Shown: positions 51,877-62,413 of the stretch, one piece after another
Layout: every line of letters starts with the position of its first letter
Numbering within the stretch: the first letter of the stretch is position 1
Assembly: GCF_039543225.1 (NCBI RefSeq)
Contig: NZ_BAABJI010000002.1
Location: 1,116,001-1,180,000, forward strand
DNA: 64,000 nt
Direction: 5' to 3'
Source: Mucilaginibacter defluvii
GTDB lineage: Bacteria; Bacteroidota; Bacteroidia; Sphingobacteriales; Sphingobacteriaceae
Program-made: the position numbers and the translations under genes
Notes under the pieces: generated by a model
Seen by the model: only the letters and a program-made list of their open reading frames with translations
What the model was told of the DNA's origin: nothing
Databases searched by the model: none

Positions 51877-51935
51877 ATTGTAAATTACACCGGGCTGTGC
51901 GCCAATCGCGGCCCGGTAATAACCTGAATTATACT

Positions 51936-53210
51936 ATGCAAATAAATAAGGAGACTGTTCAAAACATCAATAACGACGCATTCCCCTCGCATCAGCGCCG
52001 GTTTAATTACCTGGCGGATGAAATTAATAACGTTGAAACGATCATTCAAAAGCTGATTGCTTTTAACATTGCCATACCAAGTTGGGCGCTCGGTACCGGT
52101 GGAACACGTTTCGGGCGATTCTCGGGTGGTGGCGAGCCGCGCAGCCTGGAAGAAAAGATTGAGGACGTAGGTTTGATACACGCGCTCAACCGCTCCAGTA
52201 ATTCCATTTCTTTGCATATACCCTGGGATATTCCCGATAACGCGCCGTCCATAAAGGCGCTGGCCTCGCAATTAGGGCTACATTTTGACGCTGTGAACTC
52301 CAATACGTTCCAAGATCAGCCGAATCAAGCGCTGAGCTACAAATTTGGCTCGCTGCACCACGTGGACAAAGCAGTAAGGCAGCAAGCGGTTGAACATAAT
52401 ATCGAAGTAATAAAATATGGCGAGGAGCTTGGCTCAACGGCGCTTTCTGTCTGGCTGGCTGATGGATCAAACTTCCCCGGGCAGCTTAATTTTCGTAATG
52501 CATTTCAAACCACGCTCGAAAGCTTGCAGCAGGTTTATGCCGCCTTACCCGATGACTGGAAGATATGGATAGAGTACAAACCTTACGAGCCTAACTTCTA
52601 CTCCACCACCATCGGCGACTGGGGGCAATCCTACCTGTTAGCCAATAAACTTGGTGCAAAGGCAAGTACGCTGGTTGATCTTGGCCATCATCTGCCTAAT
52701 ACCAACATCGAGCAAATAGTTTCGCTATTGCTCATGGAAGGTAAGCTTGCCGGTTTTCACTTTAACGACTCTAAGTATGGAGACGACGACCTGACGGTGG
52801 GCTGTATCAACCCCTACCAGTTATACCTGATATTTAATGAGTTGGTTGAAGGCCTGGATGCCCGTAATTTAAACCATGCCACCGGCATTGGCTGGATGAT
52901 AGATGCATCACACAATGTTAAGGACCCGGTTGAAGATTTACTGCAATCGGTAGAGGCTATTAAGATTGCCTATGCACAAGCGCTTTTAGTTGATCAGGAC
53001 AAACTTAAACAAGCCCAGCTCAATAATGATGTTGCCCGGGCTCAGGAAATTTTGCAGCACGCTTACCGAACCGATGTGAGGCCGTTGCTCGCGGAGGCAA
53101 GGCTACGGGCCGGCGGTGCATTACAACCGTTGGAGGTTTTCCGCTCGCTTAAGGTACGAGAAAACCTGATACAGGAACGTGGGCTTAAAACTGTAACAAC
53201 CGGTTTGTAA
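51936..53210 (+). CDS. rhaI: L-rhamnose isomerase (RhaI type)
   Basis: A 424-residue TIM-barrel sugar isomerase converting L-rhamnose to L-rhamnulose. It resembles the Pseudomonas-type RhaI rather than E. coli RhaA: IPSWALGTGGTRFGRF, SISLHIPWDIPDN, IEYKPYEPNFYSTTIGDWG, LVDLGHHLPNTNIEQIV and FHFNDSKYGDDDLTVG, where the Glu/Asp/His metal ligands lie. A longer frame with GTG at 51897 exists, but the ATG at 51936 aligns better with the family's length and start. Its stop codon directly touches the start of the kinase gene. Confidence 0.95.
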   Translation: MQINKETVQNINNDAFPSHQRRFNYLADEINNVETIIQKLIAFNIAIPSWALGTGGTRFGRFSGGGEPRSLEEKIEDVGLIHALNRSSNSISLHIPWDIPDNAPSIKALASQLGLHFDAVNSNTFQDQPNQALSYKFGSLHHVDKAVRQQAVEHNIEVIKYGEELGSTALSVWLADGSNFPGQLNFRNAFQTTLESLQQVYAALPDDWKIWIEYKPYEPNFYSTTIGDWGQSYLLANKLGAKASTLVDLGHHLPNTNIEQIVSLLLMEGKLAGFHFNDSKYGDDDLTVGCINPYQLYLIFNELVEGLDARNLNHATGIGWMIDASHNVKDPVEDLLQSVEAIKIAYAQALLVDQDKLKQAQLNNDVARAQEILQHAYRTDVRPLLAEARLRAGGALQPLEVFRSLKVRENLIQERGLKTVTTGL

Positions 53211-54572
53211 ATGAGCGCCAAACCTGTAGTTGCTGTTTTTGACATCGGTAAAACCAACAAAAAATTGTTGCTCTTTAACGAGCATTACCAGGTTGTTTTT
53301 GAACACTCCGAAAGGATTGATGAGGTAATTGACGAGGATGGCTACCCCTGCGACGACATCGAGAAGCTGCGTGCTTTTGTTCGTGATAATCTGAATAAAG
53401 TGTTAAAAGCTGAATTTTATAAGATAAAGGCCGTTAACTTTGCCGCCTACGGGGCCAGTTTTGTTTATATCGATCAGCATGGCGAAGTACTTACGCCGCT
53501 CTACAATTATTTAAAACCGTATCCGTACAAGTTGAGCCGTCAGTTTTATAATACTTATGGCGAACCCGAAGCAATCGCGCTACAAACTGCATCACCTGCT
53601 TTGGGCAATCTTAACTCGGGTATGCAGCTGTATTGCCTGAAGCACCAGCAACCAGAAGTATTTAAAAAAATAGAAGCCGCACTGCATTTACCCCAATATC
53701 TAAGCTTTTTGCTAACTGGCCGGGCTGTGTCAGAGCTTACCAGCATCGGTTGCCATACCGCATTGTGGGATTTTGCTTTAAACGATTATCATCGCTGGGT
53801 TTACGAAGAAAAATTAAATGAAGTGCTCCCGCCCTTAAAGACTGCCAATGACGTAGTTAAGGTTGATTTTAATGGCCATAATATGCACGTTGGTACCGGC
53901 CTGCATGATAGCTCGGCAGCACTTATCCCCTATCTGATCAGCTTTACTAAACCCTTCGTTTTACTCTCGACAGGCACTTGGAGCATTACCTTAAACCCAT
54001 TTGACCAGACGCCACTTACCACGGAACAGCTCGAAAAGGATTGCCTTAATTATATACAATACGAGGGCAAGCCGGTAAAGGCTGCACGTTATTTCGCAGG
54101 GCCCGAATACGAGCAACGCTTAGCACAAATTGCTGCTCATTTCGGTCAATCTGTAAAAAAATACGAAGAGCTTACGTTTGACAAAGCTATCGCTGATAAA
54201 ATGCAAAGCAAGCAAGCGGTAACAAGAGGATCACTTAACCAGTCATCCCCAACAACTGACAACACAAATTTAGAAATGTTTAATAACGACATTGAGGCTT
54301 ATTATTGGCTGATGACGGATATCGTGAGCAAGCAAAGGGCATCAACCGAGTTGGTGATGAATGGCACGCCGGTAAAGTATCTGTTTGTTGATGGCGGTTT
54401 TAGTAAAAACGAGATTTTTATGCACCTGCTGGCATCGGCATTCCCGCACCTGGAAGTGTATGCAGCCGGTATGCCGCAGGCTACGGCGATAGGCGCTGCA
54501 TTGGCCATTCATCATGGATGGAATCACAATCCATATCCCGCTGATTTGATTTCACTCAAACGATACTCCTGA
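53211..54572 (+). CDS. rhaB: FGGY-family carbohydrate kinase, probable rhamnulokinase
   Basis: A 453-residue FGGY kinase that should phosphorylate L-rhamnulose. The N-terminal phosphate loop is VVAVFDIGKTNKKLLLF; other marks are TSIGCHTALWDF, LLSTGTWSITLNPF, and the ATP-side LFVDGGFSKNEIFMHLL. The ATG follows the isomerase TAA with no gap, which implies translational coupling. It is a little shorter than E. coli RhaB (489) and divergent from it, so fuculose or another ketose is possible, but the operon RhaT-RhaEW-RhaI makes rhamnulose by far the best substrate. Confidence 0.9.
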   Translation: MSAKPVVAVFDIGKTNKKLLLFNEHYQVVFEHSERIDEVIDEDGYPCDDIEKLRAFVRDNLNKVLKAEFYKIKAVNFAAYGASFVYIDQHGEVLTPLYNYLKPYPYKLSRQFYNTYGEPEAIALQTASPALGNLNSGMQLYCLKHQQPEVFKKIEAALHLPQYLSFLLTGRAVSELTSIGCHTALWDFALNDYHRWVYEEKLNEVLPPLKTANDVVKVDFNGHNMHVGTGLHDSSAALIPYLISFTKPFVLLSTGTWSITLNPFDQTPLTTEQLEKDCLNYIQYEGKPVKAARYFAGPEYEQRLAQIAAHFGQSVKKYEELTFDKAIADKMQSKQAVTRGSLNQSSPTTDNTNLEMFNNDIEAYYWLMTDIVSKQRASTELVMNGTPVKYLFVDGGFSKNEIFMHLLASAFPHLEVYAAGMPQATAIGAALAIHHGWNHNPYPADLISLKRYS

Positions 54573-55310: not shown

Positions 55311-58300
55311 TTATTTTTCTGCCGATAGCGGAATGCTAAACCAGAAAGTGCTCCCCTCACCTAAGGTACTCTTAATACCTACTTTACCGCGATGACGCCT
55401 TACAATCTCCGCGGAGATATACAGCCCCAATCCTAAGCCGGAGAATTGCTGCGACGACTCCTGCACCCTGTAAAACCTATCAAACAGATAAGGTTGTTTT
55501 TCAGGTGGTATGCCGATACCAAAGTCCGTTACCTCTACCTTAAACATCTTTTTCTCCACCGAACAATTAATTACCACATTGTCAGCCATCGGCGAGTATT
55601 TGATGGCATTAGTTAAAAAGTTATGCACTACCTGCTCAATACGCGGCCTGTCTGCATTGATAACAATATCATCCTTATGAGTAAATATTAATTTTTGCTT
55701 TATACCGGGAGCTTTAACGTCTTCAATACATTCCTTAATCATATCAATAGCGTTAAACTGCTGATAGTTCAACACCATTTTACCTTCCTGAATTTTGGTT
55801 ACATCCAAAAGGTCGTCAACCAGGTTAGTAAGCTTTTGCGTTTGATGCGAAGCCTTATCGATAAAATGTACCAGGTTCTCGCTCACATCCATTTTATCAA
55901 TCATACGCTGAACAATCTGTAACGAGCCTTTCATGCTGGTGATAGGTGTCTTTAGTTCATGGCTGGCAATGCTCATAAATTCGTCCTTACGGCGCATTAA
56001 TTCTTCGGTAGCTATGCGGCCAAGCACAATATCGGTCACTTCAAAGCCAAAAAACGCAATACCATCAATATGGCTGCCATCATAATTGTAAACCGGCGTC
56101 AAGGTAATATCCATCCAGCATTGTCCGGTTTGATTGCCGGAAGTTTTTTCGCGGTCTATTTTGATCTGCTTGCCCTCAAAGGTTTTGCCGCTGGCAAAAA
56201 CTTCTTTTTCAATCTCCTCAAAGTTCAGGTCATCCGCGCTGAACTTCAGTTTGGTAGCTTTTCCCTTGGTATGTTTTGAACCAAAAAATTCCACATAGGC
56301 CTCGTTCACAAAATCGTACACCAGTTGCTTACCACGTTTAATGGCAATCAACGCGGGCGCGTGGCTAAATATATTTGAGAACTCCTGCTGCTGCTGGTTA
56401 AGGCGTGTTTGCAGTTCCTGGCGCTTTTGCTCGGCTTCTTTTTGCCGGGTAATGTCAATAATATAACTAACGGCAGTGGTCTCGCTATCCTGCTCAAGCA
56501 ATGCCGACCCCATGAGTACCGATAGCAACGACCCATCCTTTTTAAGGTATTGCTTTTCAAAAGGCGGGCATATTTTGTTCTCACGCAATTGTCTTACAGC
56601 TTCATTGCTAATGGCCATATGCTCGTCGGGCGTAATTTTTTTCCAGTCAAGCTCACCATTCTCAAGGCTCGCCCTATTATACCCAAGCATGTTTAAAAAG
56701 GCGTCGTTAGCTTCGAGTATAGCGCCATCCAGATTGGAGAACAACATGCCGATCATGTTCGACTCAAACACTTTCCCAAATTTCTTTTCGCTGCTGTTAA
56801 GCCGCTTTTCTGTTTCAACAAGCTTGCTGATGTCAATAATTGAACCTACCAACCTATAAGGTGTTCGCAGTTCATCTTCAAGTATGCTGCCCCTGTCAAG
56901 TATAATGGCATATTCGCCGTTAGCTTTGCGGAAACGGTACTCGGCAGACCAGTTGCTTTCGTGGTTATTGATGGCATCATATACGCTCGCCTCAACACGC
57001 TTGCGGTCGTCAGGATGGATATGGGAGAACCAAAAATCAATTTTCTTTGTCTCGTCAGATAGTTCGTAGCCGAACATGCTGGTAAAGTTATCGCTCCGCC
57101 ACATGGTATTGGTAACCAGGTCCCAATCCCATATGGTATCATTAGTAGCTTTTGATACAAACTTGAACCGCTCTTCGCTTTCGCTCAGTTCGCGGGTACG
57201 TTCCTGTACCTTTTCTTCAAGGCTTACATTTAAGGTCCGCAGGCTCTCGCGTGCTTTCACCAACTCGGCATAGTTATTTTTAAGCTTTTGTTCGGCAAGC
57301 TTGCGCTTGGTGATATCGGTAAAGCTCATTACCACGCCGTCGGCCATTTTAGCTACCATTAGCTGATGCCACATATTGCCGCTTATCTGCAATTCGGTTT
57401 GCAATGGCGAATTTACGGATATACGCTCGAGGCTGCCAGCTGGGAATATTCTGTCCAGTTGCGGGAAATCGCCAAGTGCCGGATGCGCCATAAGCTCTTC
57501 GGCTGATTTTTGGAAAAGATCTTTTGCCGCGTTATTGAATGATATACAACGGTACTCCGTAACCTCGCCATTTTTGCCTCTTTCAGCATGAAATGCCAAT
57601 ATAGCGGCCGAGCTGGCGTTGTAAACGCCGGCTATCATGTTATTCAGTTTAGTGATGGCCGTAATATCAATAAAAGTAATCACCACGCCATCAACCTTGC
57701 CTCCCTTTTTAAGGTAAGGCATTATACGCATCAGGTTGTTACTGCCATTATGCAGCGTAACCTCTTTTTCAATAACCGTATTATTGGCCAGTACGGTATG
57801 TATATCCTTATTCAGGCTATCGTACTTAATATTGTTTGACAGATGGTTGATAGGCCTGCCAATGTCAGACTCTATCACATTGATCATATTCACCGCCGCC
57901 GGGTTAAACTTACGGATTAACAGGTTCGAATCAATAAATATCTGCCCGATAGTAGTGCTCCTGAAGTAGTTATCCAGATCCTCATTCAGCTCAAGCAACT
58001 CTCGTATCTTTTGCTGATGCTCGGTATTCAGCGTGTGCAACTCCTCGTTCAGTGATTGCAGTTCCTCGTTGCCTGATTGCAACTCCTCATTGGCCGACAT
58101 TAACTCCTCGTTGGACGATTGCAATTCTTCGTTAGTCGTCTCCATCTCCTCCATTGCCAATTGCAGGTTTGAGCGCGTTTCGGTGAGCGCTGTCTCCATC
58201 TCCATCAGGTATTCTTCCTGCGAGGTGAGGTGATCTATATCTGCGGGCTGAACATTTTTAAGCGGAACGTCAATTTGCGCGTCGTTAAGCAGTATCAGCG

Positions 58301-60152
58301 TGTACCCGTTAGGCGATTGCTCATCGGGCGGTTTAATGGTCATTTGCAAAACGCGCTTACCTTCTAACTGCCCGGTTATCGTTTTGGTCTCGTTATCCTT
58401 CCAGGCCTTGCGGATGCTTGTGCTCAGCAATATGGATATTTCGCGGTTAACCATATTGAGCAGGTTGAGCTCAAGCTTCTTTTTGGGCAAGGTTAAAAAC
58501 CGGGTAAAATCGCCAATCGTTTCCCTGATCAGGAAAGACTTATCAATAAAAACCCCTACATAACCCATTTGCCCGATAATCAGGCTCTGGAACTCATCCG
58601 CAACGGTACGGGTGGGTTCAGCCTGCTTATTCTGTATTTTTTTTGATGGTGGCTGCGCAGGCAAAGGCGAGGGCACCGTTGTAGAATAGCTATGGTGCAG
58701 GCTATATTTTATATTACCCGATTTTTTATAGATTTTCAGCTTGGCGCTCACTTCAACCAAACCATCCATTATGCTGCCGGCGTTCTCGCTCGATCCTAAA
58801 AACAGGTAACCGCCTGATTGAAGCGCATAATGGAAAGTAGTCAGTATTTTTTGCTGCAACACGGTGTTCATGTAAATCAGCATATTACGGCACGATATCA
58901 GATCGTTCTTTATAAACGGCGGCGATTTGATAACGTTATGTGCCGCGAATACTATCTTCTTGCGTATATCAGGTATTACCGAATAGGTATTATCCGAATT
59001 TTTTACAAAGTATTTTCGCAGCGTATCCGCGTCAATCTCCTTAACGCTTGATGGCGGATAACAATTTTTTGAGGCGATGCGTATGCTTTCCTCGTCCAGG
59101 TCTGTCGCGAATATTTTAAGATCAACCTGACGGCTCAATGCTTCCAGCTTTTGTTGAAAGGCAATAGCTATTGAATACGCTTCCTCTCCGGTACTGCATG
59201 CGCAAACCCATATTTTGATGGTACTACCTTCATCTTTTGAGGCGATGATTTCTGGTATTACCTCTTCCCTAAGCTTCTCAAAAGCCGGCTTATCTCTAAA
59301 AAATTTGGTAACGCCAATCAAAAACTCCTTGGCCAATATTTTAGCTTCGGCGGGCTTTTGATTAATGTAAGTGATATAATCCTGCAGGTTATGCAAATCG
59401 GCAGCGGCCAGCCTGCGGGCTATACGCCTCAGGATAGTTGGAGTTTTATACAGGTTAAAATCCTGCCCGGTTTGTGTAGATACAATATCAAATATCTCGT
59501 TCAGGTGCTCATCTTCATAAAGCTCCTTTTCGAGTTGCGGCGCATATATATGATTTACGTAATTATAAATTTCGGTATGCATATTTGCCGGCGCCAATAT
59601 AAAATCGGTATTACCCGTAGCTATGGCGCTGTTGGGCATACCATCAAACTTGGCTGTGGCCGGATCCTGCGCTATAACCATGCCGCCGCACTCTTTGATT
59701 GCTTCTATGCCCTTGCTACCATCAGAGCCAGTACCTGATAGTATAATGGCTATTGCCCGTTCTTTAACATCATTTGCAAGGGTGAACAAAAAGGTATCGA
59801 TAGCCGTGTTGGGCGATTTATCTTTAACCTTGTCTGCCAAACGCAGCTTACGATGACGAATGGTCATCGTTTTTTTTGTAGGGATGATGTAAACGCAGTT
59901 TTTTTCTAACAGCATATCGTTACCTGCTTCCATCACCTTCATGTGGGTGTGCTTGGCAACCAGTTCTACCAAAAGGCTCTTATAATCGGGCGATAAATGC
60001 TGGATGACCACAAACGTAAAGCCTGAGTTAGGCGGCATATGATCAAAAAACTCGTGTATGGCTTCCAAGCCGCCGGCGGAAGCACCTATAGTAATGATAT
60101 AACGATCGTTTACATCATTTTTCCCGGTATCCTTAACGCCTTTAGCTCTCAA
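55311..60152 (-). CDS. CheB-CheR-PAS-histidine kinase fusion protein
   Basis: A 1613-residue cytoplasmic signalling protein. Order: CheB methylesterase (about 15-200; S25 in IGASAGG, H52 in VIQHLSP, D144 in SGTGSDGSKG), CheR methyltransferase (about 210-480; FFRDKPAFEKL, VWVCACSTGEEAYSIA-type SAM loop, FAAHNVIKSPPF, CRNMLIYM), a heptad-repeat coiled coil (about 650-720), four or more PAS/PAC segments (WDWDLVTNTMWRSDNFTSMFGY and later ones), HisKA with H1398 in ASHELKTPITSM, and HATPase (NFLTNAIKYSP, DFGIGIPPEKQ, GLGLGLYIS). No receiver domain is attached. The start is TTG within a TTGA overlap with the phytochrome stop; no ATG occurs before the CheB active site. It probably gets light input from that partner and passes phosphate to the receiver at 61991. 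Confidence 0.93.
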   Translation of the reverse strand: MRAKGVKDTGKNDVNDRYIITIGASAGGLEAIHEFFDHMPPNSGFTFVVIQHLSPDYKSLLVELVAKHTHMKVMEAGNDMLLEKNCVYIIPTKKTMTIRHRKLRLADKVKDKSPNTAIDTFLFTLANDVKERAIAIILSGTGSDGSKGIEAIKECGGMVIAQDPATAKFDGMPNSAIATGNTDFILAPANMHTEIYNYVNHIYAPQLEKELYEDEHLNEIFDIVSTQTGQDFNLYKTPTILRRIARRLAAADLHNLQDYITYINQKPAEAKILAKEFLIGVTKFFRDKPAFEKLREEVIPEIIASKDEGSTIKIWVCACSTGEEAYSIAIAFQQKLEALSRQVDLKIFATDLDEESIRIASKNCYPPSSVKEIDADTLRKYFVKNSDNTYSVIPDIRKKIVFAAHNVIKSPPFIKNDLISCRNMLIYMNTVLQQKILTTFHYALQSGGYLFLGSSENAGSIMDGLVEVSAKLKIYKKSGNIKYSLHHSYSTTVPSPLPAQPPSKKIQNKQAEPTRTVADEFQSLIIGQMGYVGVFIDKSFLIRETIGDFTRFLTLPKKKLELNLLNMVNREISILLSTSIRKAWKDNETKTITGQLEGKRVLQMTIKPPDEQSPNGYTLILLNDAQIDVPLKNVQPADIDHLTSQEEYLMEMETALTETRSNLQLAMEEMETTNEELQSSNEELMSANEELQSGNEELQSLNEELHTLNTEHQQKIRELLELNEDLDNYFRSTTIGQIFIDSNLLIRKFNPAAVNMINVIESDIGRPINHLSNNIKYDSLNKDIHTVLANNTVIEKEVTLHNGSNNLMRIMPYLKKGGKVDGVVITFIDITAITKLNNMIAGVYNASSAAILAFHAERGKNGEVTEYRCISFNNAAKDLFQKSAEELMAHPALGDFPQLDRIFPAGSLERISVNSPLQTELQISGNMWHQLMVAKMADGVVMSFTDITKRKLAEQKLKNNYAELVKARESLRTLNVSLEEKVQERTRELSESEERFKFVSKATNDTIWDWDLVTNTMWRSDNFTSMFGYELSDETKKIDFWFSHIHPDDRKRVEASVYDAINNHESNWSAEYRFRKANGEYAIILDRGSILEDELRTPYRLVGSIIDISKLVETEKRLNSSEKKFGKVFESNMIGMLFSNLDGAILEANDAFLNMLGYNRASLENGELDWKKITPDEHMAISNEAVRQLRENKICPPFEKQYLKKDGSLLSVLMGSALLEQDSETTAVSYIIDITRQKEAEQKRQELQTRLNQQQQEFSNIFSHAPALIAIKRGKQLVYDFVNEAYVEFFGSKHTKGKATKLKFSADDLNFEEIEKEVFASGKTFEGKQIKIDREKTSGNQTGQCWMDITLTPVYNYDGSHIDGIAFFGFEVTDIVLGRIATEELMRRKDEFMSIASHELKTPITSMKGSLQIVQRMIDKMDVSENLVHFIDKASHQTQKLTNLVDDLLDVTKIQEGKMVLNYQQFNAIDMIKECIEDVKAPGIKQKLIFTHKDDIVINADRPRIEQVVHNFLTNAIKYSPMADNVVINCSVEKKMFKVEVTDFGIGIPPEKQPYLFDRFYRVQESSQQFSGLGLGLYISAEIVRRHRGKVGIKSTLGEGSTFWFSIPLSAEK
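58033..58143 (-). repeat. 21-bp tandem repeats encoding NEEL heptads
   Basis: Five tandem units with starts at 58039, 58060, 58081, 58102 and 58123, each a variant of AACTCCTCGTT (read on the plus strand), encode NEELxxx heptads of the coiled coil in the CheB-CheR kinase. A perfect 21-bp period can expand or contract in frame by replication slippage. Confidence 0.85.
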
Positions 60153-61663
60153 AACTTGTTGTTTTTTGTCTGGAATTCATAAATAAAGCTGCGCATCGTT
60201 TCTGCCACTGCCATTTCCTGCGCCGTCCACGGCGGCGATGTTTGATGCACCGTTTGCTGCCACAGGTTAAACGAGTTTCGCGGATGATAATTTTTTCCGT
60301 CGAGCTCAAAATTTATAGCCTGATCTGGGTTGCCTCCCCACTTAATTTCGCGTTTAACCTCGCCCCTAAAGCAAATAATAAAATCGCCACGGTCCGCGTC
60401 AACGGGTATGGCCAATATTCCGCTCGCTATTTCGGCTATAGGCAAAGCATCATCATAAAGCTCCGGCAAATGGTCTGTAGCAAACACACGTTCTACCCTT
60501 TTGGTTTGTAACCATAAAATCAGGTTTTCAACAAATTCCTGATCCGGAATGTTTTTAATGCCCCAAACAACACCATTAATAACGGCTACAGCGCCGCTGG
60601 CATTAAATAGTTCAGTTATATTTGGCTGATCTTCAGTAAGCAAACCCCTTATCAGGTCATCCTCGGCATACACGCGGGCCATCAGCAGGGTTTGTTCTTT
60701 TTGCAGTTCAGTTTCTACGTCAGCCTCATTTTTATGGAGTAATGATTCAATGCGCGCCGATATGATGGACGACAACAATTCGCAAATTGAACATACTTCA
60801 AGGCTTAAATATTTATCCGTAATATGGTGGCAGGCTATAAGCCCCCATAATTGCCCGTGATAAATTACGCGGATAGACATTGACGCTGTTACACCCATGT
60901 TTTTCAGGTACTCCAGGTGTACAGCGGCCACACCACGCACATTACAGTCAGACAGGTCGGTAAAGGTTTTGGTAACCAGGTTAACTATCGGGTAAAGACT
61001 GATGGGTTTATATGTACGATCGGGTATTAAACGGTACGGATTTTTAAGGTACAACTGCCTGGCCTGCCGCGGCACATCAGAAGCGGGGAAAGTAAGCCCG
61101 AGGTAATGTTCCAGGTCGCCGGTCTTTTCCTCGGCAATTACAGTACCGTTCCAATCTTCATCAAACCGGTACATCATCACGCCATCAAACCCGGTTATCT
61201 TTTTTATTTCAGCGATGCCTACCCTGCAAATTTCCTCTGCGGTTTGGCACGCCTCAAGGCGGGCAATGGCCAGCTTAACTTCTTCAAATGCTTCGGTAAA
61301 AACCCGGTCGGCGCCAAGTTTTTTCTCCATCTCTAAAATCACATAACCCTCTTTTACATGTATCAGTATTTCCATACTGTGGCCATGCAGGTTAAATGTG
61401 AGCGGGGCTTTGGCTTGCACAGCATCATCTAAACGCTGTTTAAGTTTATCAAGTTGATCCGGCCCGGCTAAGTCACTTATATTTTTAGTTATCAATTCCT
61501 TTGCAGGCAGCTCAAGCAGTTCAGTCAGGTTATCGCTACATTGAATAATGTTTAGCGATCCGGCTTCTAACACCAGCAAATAGCCGTAATCCTGTATAAC
61601 ATTTATATGATTTAGGGGAAGGTTACCGCAAAAATCAGAATCATAATTTTTCTTTTCAGCCAT
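60149..61663 (-). CDS. Phytochrome photosensory module (PAS-GAF-PHY) without output domain
   Basis: A 504-residue protein from the ATG at 61663; the longer frame starts with TTG. It aligns with bacteriophytochromes: the biliverdin Cys12 in DFCGNLPLNHINVIQDYG has the same distance to the IQ-x-x-G stretch as in known proteins. The GAF domain keeps D196 (FPASDVPRQAR), H249 (VHLEYLKNMGV) and H279 (LWGLIACHH). The PHY tongue has the PRxSF motif (PRNSF, 461-465). After the PHY helix the protein ends, with no histidine kinase. Such a light-sensing core must pass its signal to another protein, and the CheB-CheR kinase encoded with a 4-base overlap is the natural partner. No heme oxygenase gene for the chromophore is in the window. 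Confidence 0.93.
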   Translation of the reverse strand: MAEKKNYDSDFCGNLPLNHINVIQDYGYLLVLEAGSLNIIQCSDNLTELLELPAKELITKNISDLAGPDQLDKLKQRLDDAVQAKAPLTFNLHGHSMEILIHVKEGYVILEMEKKLGADRVFTEAFEEVKLAIARLEACQTAEEICRVGIAEIKKITGFDGVMMYRFDEDWNGTVIAEEKTGDLEHYLGLTFPASDVPRQARQLYLKNPYRLIPDRTYKPISLYPIVNLVTKTFTDLSDCNVRGVAAVHLEYLKNMGVTASMSIRVIYHGQLWGLIACHHITDKYLSLEVCSICELLSSIISARIESLLHKNEADVETELQKEQTLLMARVYAEDDLIRGLLTEDQPNITELFNASGAVAVINGVVWGIKNIPDQEFVENLILWLQTKRVERVFATDHLPELYDDALPIAEIASGILAIPVDADRGDFIICFRGEVKREIKWGGNPDQAINFELDGKNYHPRNSFNLWQQTVHQTSPPWTAQEMAVAETMRSFIYEFQTKNNKF

Positions 61664-61681
61664 ATTAGCTTTTAACAACAA

Positions 61682-61990
61682 TAAGTTTGCTGAGGATCAT
61701 ATCAATGACAAGAGCGGAATTTCGGCTAATAAAAATCAACAGCAGATGTAACGGCTAAAATAATATAAATATTTTACTATGAACAGCTGCCTCAATAATA
61801 AGCACAACCCTTGGCTATACCAGTGTTAAGGCAATATTATGCATTATGATAACCGTACGTAAAATAATACATACTATTTAACAAAGGGAAAGAAAAAAAA
61901 CGATATATATGACGAAATAGTGTTTAGGTTTTTACAGGTTGATTCAGGGCTTTATAACCACCCCGATATTTAGGCTATATGGCAGGGGTA
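61682..61990. other. 309-bp gap between response regulator and phytochrome genes
   Basis: AT-rich spacer without an ORF or clear terminator. It should contain the promoter of the leftward phytochrome-kinase operon, but no TAnnTTTG on the minus strand was found. Confidence 0.5.
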
Positions 61991-62413
61991 TTAGTTAACC
62001 CAGGCTTTGCCGGGAAGATACTGACCGGCAATTTCTTCGAGCTTTTGCTTAACTACAGGCTTACTTATAAACCCTTTTACGGCTGCAAACGTTGTTGCGC
62101 GTTGCTTATCGCTACCATCAATAGACGAACTTACTATAAAAACATGCGGCTGTTTTTGTAAAGCAGGCATCAGGCTTTCCAAATCGGTTAAAAATTGCCA
62201 GCCGCTATAAGGCATATTCAAATCGAGGAAAATAAGATCTGGTAAAACAGAAATATCTTCATGATTTTCTTCGAGGAAGTTGATGATCAGGGCTGCATCC
62301 AACGTATGTACCGAGTCTTCAAAAATTTCATACCGGTCAAACATCTTTTGCATAATTAAGTGCTCCATCGGGTTATCATCAATCATCAGCGTTTTACACA
62401 TGTTTATTTTCAT
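61991..62413 (-). CDS. Single-domain response regulator (receiver)
   Basis: A 140-residue CheY-like receiver without an output domain. Acidic pocket D12-D13 in MIDDNP, phosphoacceptor D64 in IFLDLNMP, Ser/Thr switch in VSSSIDG, and K118 in ISKPV are all present. Receivers of this Bacteroidota type act with PAS-rich kinases. It lies 309 bp upstream of the phytochrome gene in the same direction and is the obvious target for the kinase at 55311, which has no receiver of its own. A Met at residue 5 is an alternative start. Confidence 0.92.
   Translation of the reverse strand: MKINMCKTLMIDDNPMEHLIMQKMFDRYEIFEDSVHTLDAALIINFLEENHEDISVLPDLIFLDLNMPYSGWQFLTDLESLMPALQKQPHVFIVSSSIDGSDKQRATTFAAVKGFISKPVVKQKLEEIAGQYLPGKAWVN

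Follow-up and report, generated by a model that had tools for sequence, protein, structure and literature searches.

A kinase-less bacteriophytochrome and a CheB-CheR-PAS histidine kinase form a conserved two-gene module in Bacteroidota

Introduction

The 64,000-nucleotide stretch of Mucilaginibacter defluvii DNA analysed here (contig NZ_BAABJI010000002.1; at its full length called the window) contains a phytochrome gene without a kinase part, followed by the gene of a histidine kinase that is fused to the methylation enzymes CheB and CheR. This locus raises the question of how a photosensor without its own kinase passes on its signal, and of what CheB and CheR act upon in such a protein. The host genome (4.66 Mb, 4 contigs) is that of a Mucilaginibacter-like member of the Bacteroidota, a soil-type bacterium. 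In a preliminary description of the locus, it was proposed that the phytochrome works in trans on the kinase in a pathway that includes a lone receiver encoded upstream. The two genes were defined by open reading frames (ORF) and Pfam, with lengths in amino acids (aa), as follows:

60149..61663, minus strand: kinase-less bacteriophytochrome PAS-GAF-PHY, 504 aa from the ATG at 61663 (ORF and Pfam)
55311..60152, minus strand: CheB-CheR-PAS-like-coil-PAS(x4)-HisKA-HATPase kinase, 1613 aa (ORF and Pfam)
60149..60152, minus strand: stop/start overlap of the phytochrome and kinase genes, 4 bases, TTGA (ORF coordinates)

The phytochrome and the kinase gene are a fixed pair

Gene neighbourhoods were analysed in two sets of relatives. 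The family set was obtained from 201 genomes of the same family, which contained 35 kinase-less phytochromes in 34 genomes; 34 loci were compared, the window's own being excluded. For the named set, species genomes were scanned, which gave 159 phytochrome relatives, and neighbourhoods were taken from the best 80 of these. Both sets together comprise 85 distinct phytochromes, of which 26 are common to both, and span Sphingobacteriales, Chitinophagales and Cytophagales according to record titles, with lineages verified for four names. Among the best 80, the closest named phytochrome is that of Mucilaginibacter roseus (91% identity).

At all 34 loci of the family set, the phytochrome gene is immediately followed on its own strand by a CheB-CheR-PAS-kinase gene, at a distance of -56 to +41 bases as computed with longest-ORF starts. 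The same was true across the three orders of the named set, where the next same-strand gene encoded both CheB and CheR at 80 of 80 loci. A kinase domain was also present in 75 of these genes, while the other five are short or cut by the contig end (L071, L080, L091, L093, L101). The gaps at the 80 loci ranged from -143 to +87 bases with a median of 6; they were computed with longest-ORF starts, and negative values are possibly overstated. A sample of 395 genomes of the phylum, in which the kinase-less type was told by size, added G232 from another family, with heme oxygenase, phytochrome and CheB-CheR kinase genes in a row (L224:2774-9421). The neighbourhood first seen in the window was thus kept at every locus of both sets and in G232, and phytochrome and CheB-CheR kinase are a fixed two-gene module. 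The kinase domain of G232 is only 28% like that of the window, which points to a possible kinase swap.

The 4-base overlap given in the preliminary description for the 1613-aa gene was found again at 60149-60152, the kinase start codon being a TTG that lies within the phytochrome stop codon. In ten relatives chosen for a gap of -4 or -1, the corresponding kinase start is ATG, GTG or TTG.

The phytochrome belongs to a kinase-less clade

ORF analysis and Pfam agreed with the earlier statement that the 504-aa PAS-GAF-PHY protein ends right after PHY. PHY (146.3 bits), PAS_2 (53.7 bits) and GAF (45.8 bits) were all detected over the cut-off, with no Pfam domain after PHY. From an alternative start at an upstream TTG the protein has 510 aa, and PHY stops 5 residues short of the end of this 510-aa frame. 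A search among solved structures returned phytochromes as top matches over near full length, the best being 9jry (341 bits). Against the NCBIfam model bacphytchrmBphP, the protein scored 273.3 bits (cut-off 1040), and the chain contains neither HisKA nor HATPase.

The biliverdin Cys, the Asp and His of the GAF pocket and the PRxSF tongue are all present in the window's phytochrome. Conservation was scored in 81 rows, i.e. the window's own sequence and the best 80 relatives, and the roles of the scored residues are those known from DrBphP and the E. coli/Salmonella enzymes. The bilin-binding residues listed earlier for the window, and in addition Arg243, proved to be conserved: Cys12, Asp196, Arg243, His249 and the tongue residues Arg462 and Ser464 are invariant (81/81), and His279 is kept in 78 rows with Asn in the other three. 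In the family alignment (35 rows), Asn was seen by eye at position 279 in four.

The kinase-less phytochromes of the 201 family genomes share 38-100% identity with that of the window and have open frames of 497-536 aa. The canonical phytochromes of the family, among the matches listed, show 21-33% identity and mostly 720-790 aa. No single chain joining PHY and CheB was found in the family and phylum scans, where PHY-matching frames, among the matches listed, reached at most 977 aa. By its sequence, the phytochrome of the window is a member of a clade without a kinase part in any of its proteins. The host genome has two PHY genes, that of the window and a canonical one of 740 aa with the architecture PAS-GAF-PHY-HisKA-HATPase (locus L001, contig C4). 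At L001:517-3302, the canonical phytochrome kinase gene and a heme oxygenase gene are convergent and overlap by 4 bases.

The partner kinases form one subfamily

With the CheB-CheR region as query, 37 loci of the family genomes scored at least 548 bits and all others at most 448 bits. Of these 37 subfamily loci, 35 are linked to a phytochrome, the exceptions being L183 and L184 (genomes G006 and G034). In a tree of 67 CheB-CheR sequences (built with a quick method and midpoint-rooted, with long branches flagged), the 35 linked and the two unlinked kinases formed one clade with a support of 99 in the Shimodaira-Hasegawa-like approximate likelihood ratio test (SH-aLRT). L183 still has remnants of two parts of the phytochrome, the first 26 residues and about 20 residues close to the C-terminus (L183:3783-3916). 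L184 has a remnant of the last 19 residues together with a piece of heme oxygenase (L184:8572-8947). Therefore, the phytochrome was lost at both loci. The idea that these phytochrome-less members represent the ancestral state was rejected, as they are nested inside the clade and have kept the remnants.

At 18 other CheB-CheR fusion loci that were read, no phytochrome was found among the neighbouring genes, of which up to three per side were covered; one of these loci, L187, has no upstream gene remaining on its contig. Orphan CheB-CheR-PAS-kinase fusions are numerous in the same family, and CheB-CheR-kinase fusions occur also in alphaproteobacteria. The kinases of the module clade have 1350-1880 aa, the other CheB-CheR fusions of the family mostly about 960-1240 aa. 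A longer kinase variant (1863-1874 aa) was observed in one branch, at L054, L058, L183 and L184.

CheB, CheR and the kinase domain retain their catalytic residues

The following parts of the kinase protein were located:

59568..60095, minus strand: CheB methylesterase (CheB_methylest), aa 20-195 (Pfam)
59355..59507, minus strand: CheR N-terminal helical domain (CheR_N), aa 216-266 (Pfam)
58779..59312, minus strand: CheR methyltransferase, aa 281-458 (Pfam)
58014..58163, minus strand: Glu-Glu heptad helix, aa 664-713, core NEELQSSNEELMSANEELQSGNEELQSLNEELHTLN (alignment and structure model)
57660..57977, minus strand: PAS_10, aa 726-831 (Pfam)
56841..57098, minus strand: PAS_3, aa 1019-1104 (Pfam)
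56448..56750, minus strand: PAS_9, aa 1135-1235 (Pfam)
56031..56369, minus strand: PAS_4-like, aa 1262-1374 (Pfam)
55782..55988, minus strand: HisKA, aa 1389-1457, phospho-acceptor His1398 (Pfam and alignment)
55323..55652, minus strand: HATPase_c, aa 1501-1610 (Pfam)

Ser25, His52 and Asp144 of CheB as well as Arg286 and Asp351 of CheR are present in 81 of 81 rows. Asn423 and Tyr427 of CheR are present in 80, the remaining row showing a gap. The proposal that both enzymes have kept their catalytic residues was confirmed in this way, the seven tested positions being invariant in 80 or 81 of the 81 rows. His1398, Asn1511 (N-box) and Asp1543 (G1) of the kinase were found in all of the 76 rows that reach these positions. 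An AlphaFold model of the protein resembles the solved CheR and CheB structures. Because its predicted template modelling score (pTM) is only 0.38, the model is not used to judge how the domains pack.

A conserved Glu-Glu helix in a genome without chemoreceptors

A search of the whole host genome for methyl-accepting receptors (PF00015) gave no match, while the same search was positive in 7 of 14 control genomes. The earlier remark that no chemoreceptor lies nearby was an understatement, since none was found genome-wide. In the family, PF00015 exceeded the cut-off in three of 201 genomes, one of which (G031) has a kinase-less phytochrome. Accordingly, 33 of the 34 module genomes have no chemoreceptor over the cut-off; a weak match below it was obtained in G155 and G011. 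The host genome encodes two CheR and three CheB domains.

The Glu-Glu helix is located C-terminal to CheR, between the PAS-like region and PAS_10. All ten Glu of its five Glu-Glu (EE) pairs are invariant in all 78 rows covering this part. The 43-aa stretch with the highest conservation in the whole kinase lies in this helix (mean top-residue frequency 0.98 in the 35-row alignment), and the best stretch elsewhere, in CheB, reaches 0.88. The structure model predicts one helix from aa 644 to 730, with a predicted local distance difference test score (pLDDT) of 85-90 over aa 664-713.

In the methylation helices of methyl-accepting chemotaxis proteins (MCP), Glu pairs recur at a spacing of seven residues and are followed by small residues, and the consensus of their methylation sites is [ASTG][ASTG]xx[EQ][EQ]xx[ASTG][ASTG]. 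The C-terminal half of this consensus matched the kinase four times, always in the coil; for the coil slice that holds three of these matches, shuffles reached three in 3 of 2000 cases.

When the helix was used as query, the best 37 matches were the same 37 loci as those found with CheB-CheR, and other CheB-CheR genes came next. The first matches of another kind were coil-PAS-kinases of about 600 aa; at L216-L218, their neighbour is a CheB-CheR kinase whose EE coil is of the same type. Weaker matches occurred in many other proteins. In the host genome, an 813-aa PAS-kinase with a NEEL-type coil was found on contig C2 (L219:1645-4086). On contig C1 (L220:2142-8965), stand-alone CheR and CheB genes lie between two kinase-like genes, the first of which encodes 1147 aa with an EE-rich coil.

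A parallel arrangement with LOV proteins in alphaproteobacteria

A plasmid search with CheB-CheR gave two Sphingomonas loci, where a PAS protein of about 186 aa precedes the CheB-CheR fusion gene and a receiver follows it. The small protein carries the LOV cysteine motif GxNCRxLQ. Used as the next query, it gave 16 records at a coverage of at least 80%, of which 10 were read; left out were H53, H62, H63 and three records at 30-33% identity. The LOV motif, the CheB motif and the EE coil are all present at the 10 loci. At L213, the fusion gene looks broken, since the CheB motif and the coil are in different frames. Pfam analysis of seven of the fusion proteins identified CheB, CheR, PAS_10 and an HWE kinase in each. 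A receiver follows the LOV-linked kinase in 8 of 8 annotated records; in one of these, the gene is labelled 'histidine kinase', but Pfam identifies a receiver. Nine LOV-linked kinases form a clade apart from the phytochrome-linked one (SH-aLRT 100), and the photosensor-kinase layout therefore arose at least twice. The LOV/CheB-CheR-HWE plasmid loci (L205, L206, L208-L215) belong to Sphingomonas, Novosphingobium, Sphingobium, Rhizobium, Neorhizobium and Sagittula.

Heme oxygenase and receiver genes

In the named set, a heme oxygenase gene is located directly upstream on the same strand at 29 of 80 loci, a receiver gene directly downstream at 19, and both at 18. The 34-locus set showed an upstream heme oxygenase in 10 cases and a downstream receiver in 10. 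Pfam confirmed two of the upstream oxygenases and one of the downstream receivers. The only heme oxygenase found in the host genome is the one beside the canonical phytochrome gene on contig C4 (L001). The window has a receiver gene upstream of the phytochrome:

61991..62413, minus strand: single-domain receiver, 140 aa (ORF and Pfam)

This lone receiver exists as stated in the preliminary description, but its place in the pathway was not supported. Its type was found within three genes of the module (>60% identity) at only 2 of the 80 loci, in M. roseus and Mucilaginibacter sp. UR6-1, the two closest relatives, and for this reason it was rejected as a conserved member of the module. It is rather unlikely that it is the cognate response regulator. 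Its gene shares the strand of the module, is located 327 bases ahead of the ATG of the phytochrome and has stayed beside the module in these two relatives; against this, its type is missing within three genes at the other 78 loci, and a different receiver type directly follows the kinase at 19 of 80. This downstream type has a relative of 71% identity in the host genome, located alone among other genes (C4:213071-213442), the next best reaching 37%. By similarity, the receiver at C4:213071 is the best candidate partner in the host genome rather than that of the window, and serves as a lead only.

Elsewhere in the window (51897-54572), two adjacent plus-strand genes were noticed, the second resembling an FGGY-type sugar kinase by eye; a sugar-utilisation cluster is possible.

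Proposed mechanism and alternative explanations

The module probably represents a two-gene red/far-red system, in which the phytochrome would act in trans on the CheB-CheR-PAS-kinase and the kinase would adapt itself via CheR and CheB. The phytochrome is predicted to bind biliverdin made by the heme oxygenase of the host and to switch between the red-absorbing (Pr) and far-red-absorbing (Pfr) forms. Its PHY/C-terminal helix would dock on the PAS or coil region of the kinase, which would alter both autophosphorylation and the phosphotransfer to a single-domain receiver. Action in trans, already suggested in the preliminary description, fits the kinase-less clade, the pairing at every locus and the intact residues, from which it is inferred. 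With less support than the preceding steps, CheR and CheB may have the Glu-Glu helix as their target, either in cis or in the other chain of the dimer; this was proposed because the genome has no chemoreceptor. Methylation of the helix would reset the sensitivity of the kinase to the light background, in the way that methylation of MCPs works in chemotaxis. CheR has been reported to methylate the non-MCP protein PhoP on arginine (PMC8546571). Only tentatively do we propose the wider scheme that CheR and CheB reversibly methylate the five Glu-Glu pairs of their own chain, giving a chemoreceptor-free adaptation in a single protein that is served in trans by interchangeable photosensors, phytochrome in Bacteroidota and LOV in alphaproteobacteria.

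Several observations weigh against this mechanism. The kinase-less type is rare, occurring in three of the 395 genomes of the phylum sample (the window's, G051 and G232). Kinase and receiver were retained after the loss of the phytochrome at L183 and L184; since these two relatives keep the kinase without it, the kinase of the module may have other inputs. At 61 of 80 loci, the position directly behind the kinase gene had no tagged receiver. The downstream receiver family occurs in 145 of the 201 family genomes, whether or not they carry the module, which is why the tie of the candidate receiver to the kinase is taken as a lead only, and why this family was rejected as evidence of specificity. 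EE coils were seen by eye at all 25 loci compared, with or without a photosensor, and the coil is not light-specific, being common to CheB-CheR fusions that lack one. Neither CheB nor CheR was found near the coil kinase of L219 in the 6 kb read. The full MCP consensus had no match in the kinase. After shuffling of the whole protein, the half-consensus occurred 1.4 times on average and up to seven times, so that four matches are not many for its size. With matches to only half of the consensus and similar counts reached by shuffling, the likeness of the helix to MCP methylation helices is suggestive only.

Alternatively, CheB and CheR could act in trans on another protein, e.g. a kinase with a similar coil, their own coil merely being a dimer helix that transmits the signal. 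The three g18 genomes in which a kinase of about 600 aa without CheB/CheR adjoins the CheB-CheR kinase (L216-L218) speak for this possibility, as do the second coil kinase of the host (L219) and its stand-alone CheR-CheB pair beside the 1147-aa kinase (L220). We consider it unlikely, as the coil shares a chain with CheR in all 78 rows covering it, and clustering of the genes around the 34 family loci showed no recurrent second coil-kinase. That CheB and CheR are now scaffolds or small-molecule sensor domains, inactive on protein side chains, would agree with a genome devoid of MCP substrates. This explanation is quite improbable in view of the seven positions, where the only exceptions are gaps, and of the agreement between the AlphaFold model and the solved CheR and CheB structures. 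Finally, the phytochrome might only be co-transcribed with the CheB-CheR kinase and pair with the canonical phytochrome kinase of L001, while the CheB-CheR kinase senses other cues via its PAS domains. The host does have that 740-aa canonical BphP, and two relatives retained the kinase without the phytochrome. Linkage in all 80 named loci of three orders, and a kinase subfamily that is defined by this linkage, make such a separation highly improbable.

Significance and comparison with known systems

If the trans-acting mechanism is true, the module is a recurrent multi-protein phytochrome pathway with sensor and kinase as separate genes. It would also offer a handle on the function of CheB-CheR-kinase fusions, whose substrate is puzzling in chemoreceptor-free genomes and which are annotated as 'chemotaxis protein CheB' or 'CheR family methyltransferase'. 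The invariant Glu-Glu helix makes it possible to test directly whether, outside chemotaxis, reversible methylation can store a memory of light levels. The separate photosensor and kinase parts could also be of use in optogenetic design.

The preliminary description regarded the whole layout as undescribed. This did not stand for the fusion of methylation enzymes to a kinase, which is frequent, and since such fusions are common, novelty is limited to the fixed pairing with a stand-alone photosensor. Among the paper titles listed in the literature searches, none dealt with a CheB-CheR kinase that is paired with a neighbouring phytochrome or LOV protein; the parts are of known kinds, and their fixed pairing was not found in print. 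A review treats CheB/CheR in light responses together with MCPs (PMC5812497), and another source describes phytochromes with kinases, Bacteroidetes included, and remarks on frequent replacement of the kinase (PMC4422448).

The phytochrome of the window shares the PAS-GAF-PHY core, the N-terminal Cys and the tongue with canonical BphP histidine kinases, and the canonical BphP at L001 is beside a heme oxygenase gene like many module phytochromes. It differs by the absence of a kinase in the chain and by its own clade with the N-terminal motif FCGxLP. Other CheB-CheR-PAS-kinase fusions have the same order of CheB, CheR, EE coil, PAS and kinase, but the clade of the window has larger sizes and an upstream phytochrome. 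With the MCP adaptation system, the module has in common the enzymes CheR and CheB and helical heptads of Glu pairs as a possible substrate; in contrast to chemotaxis, there is no MCP in the genome, the enzymes are fused to an ordinary HisKA kinase and only half of the methylation consensus is matched. The closest parallel in layout is the LOV system, where a stand-alone photosensor gene also directly precedes the CheB-CheR kinase and a receiver follows, but with a blue-light flavin sensor (by motif), an HWE kinase and a different clade.

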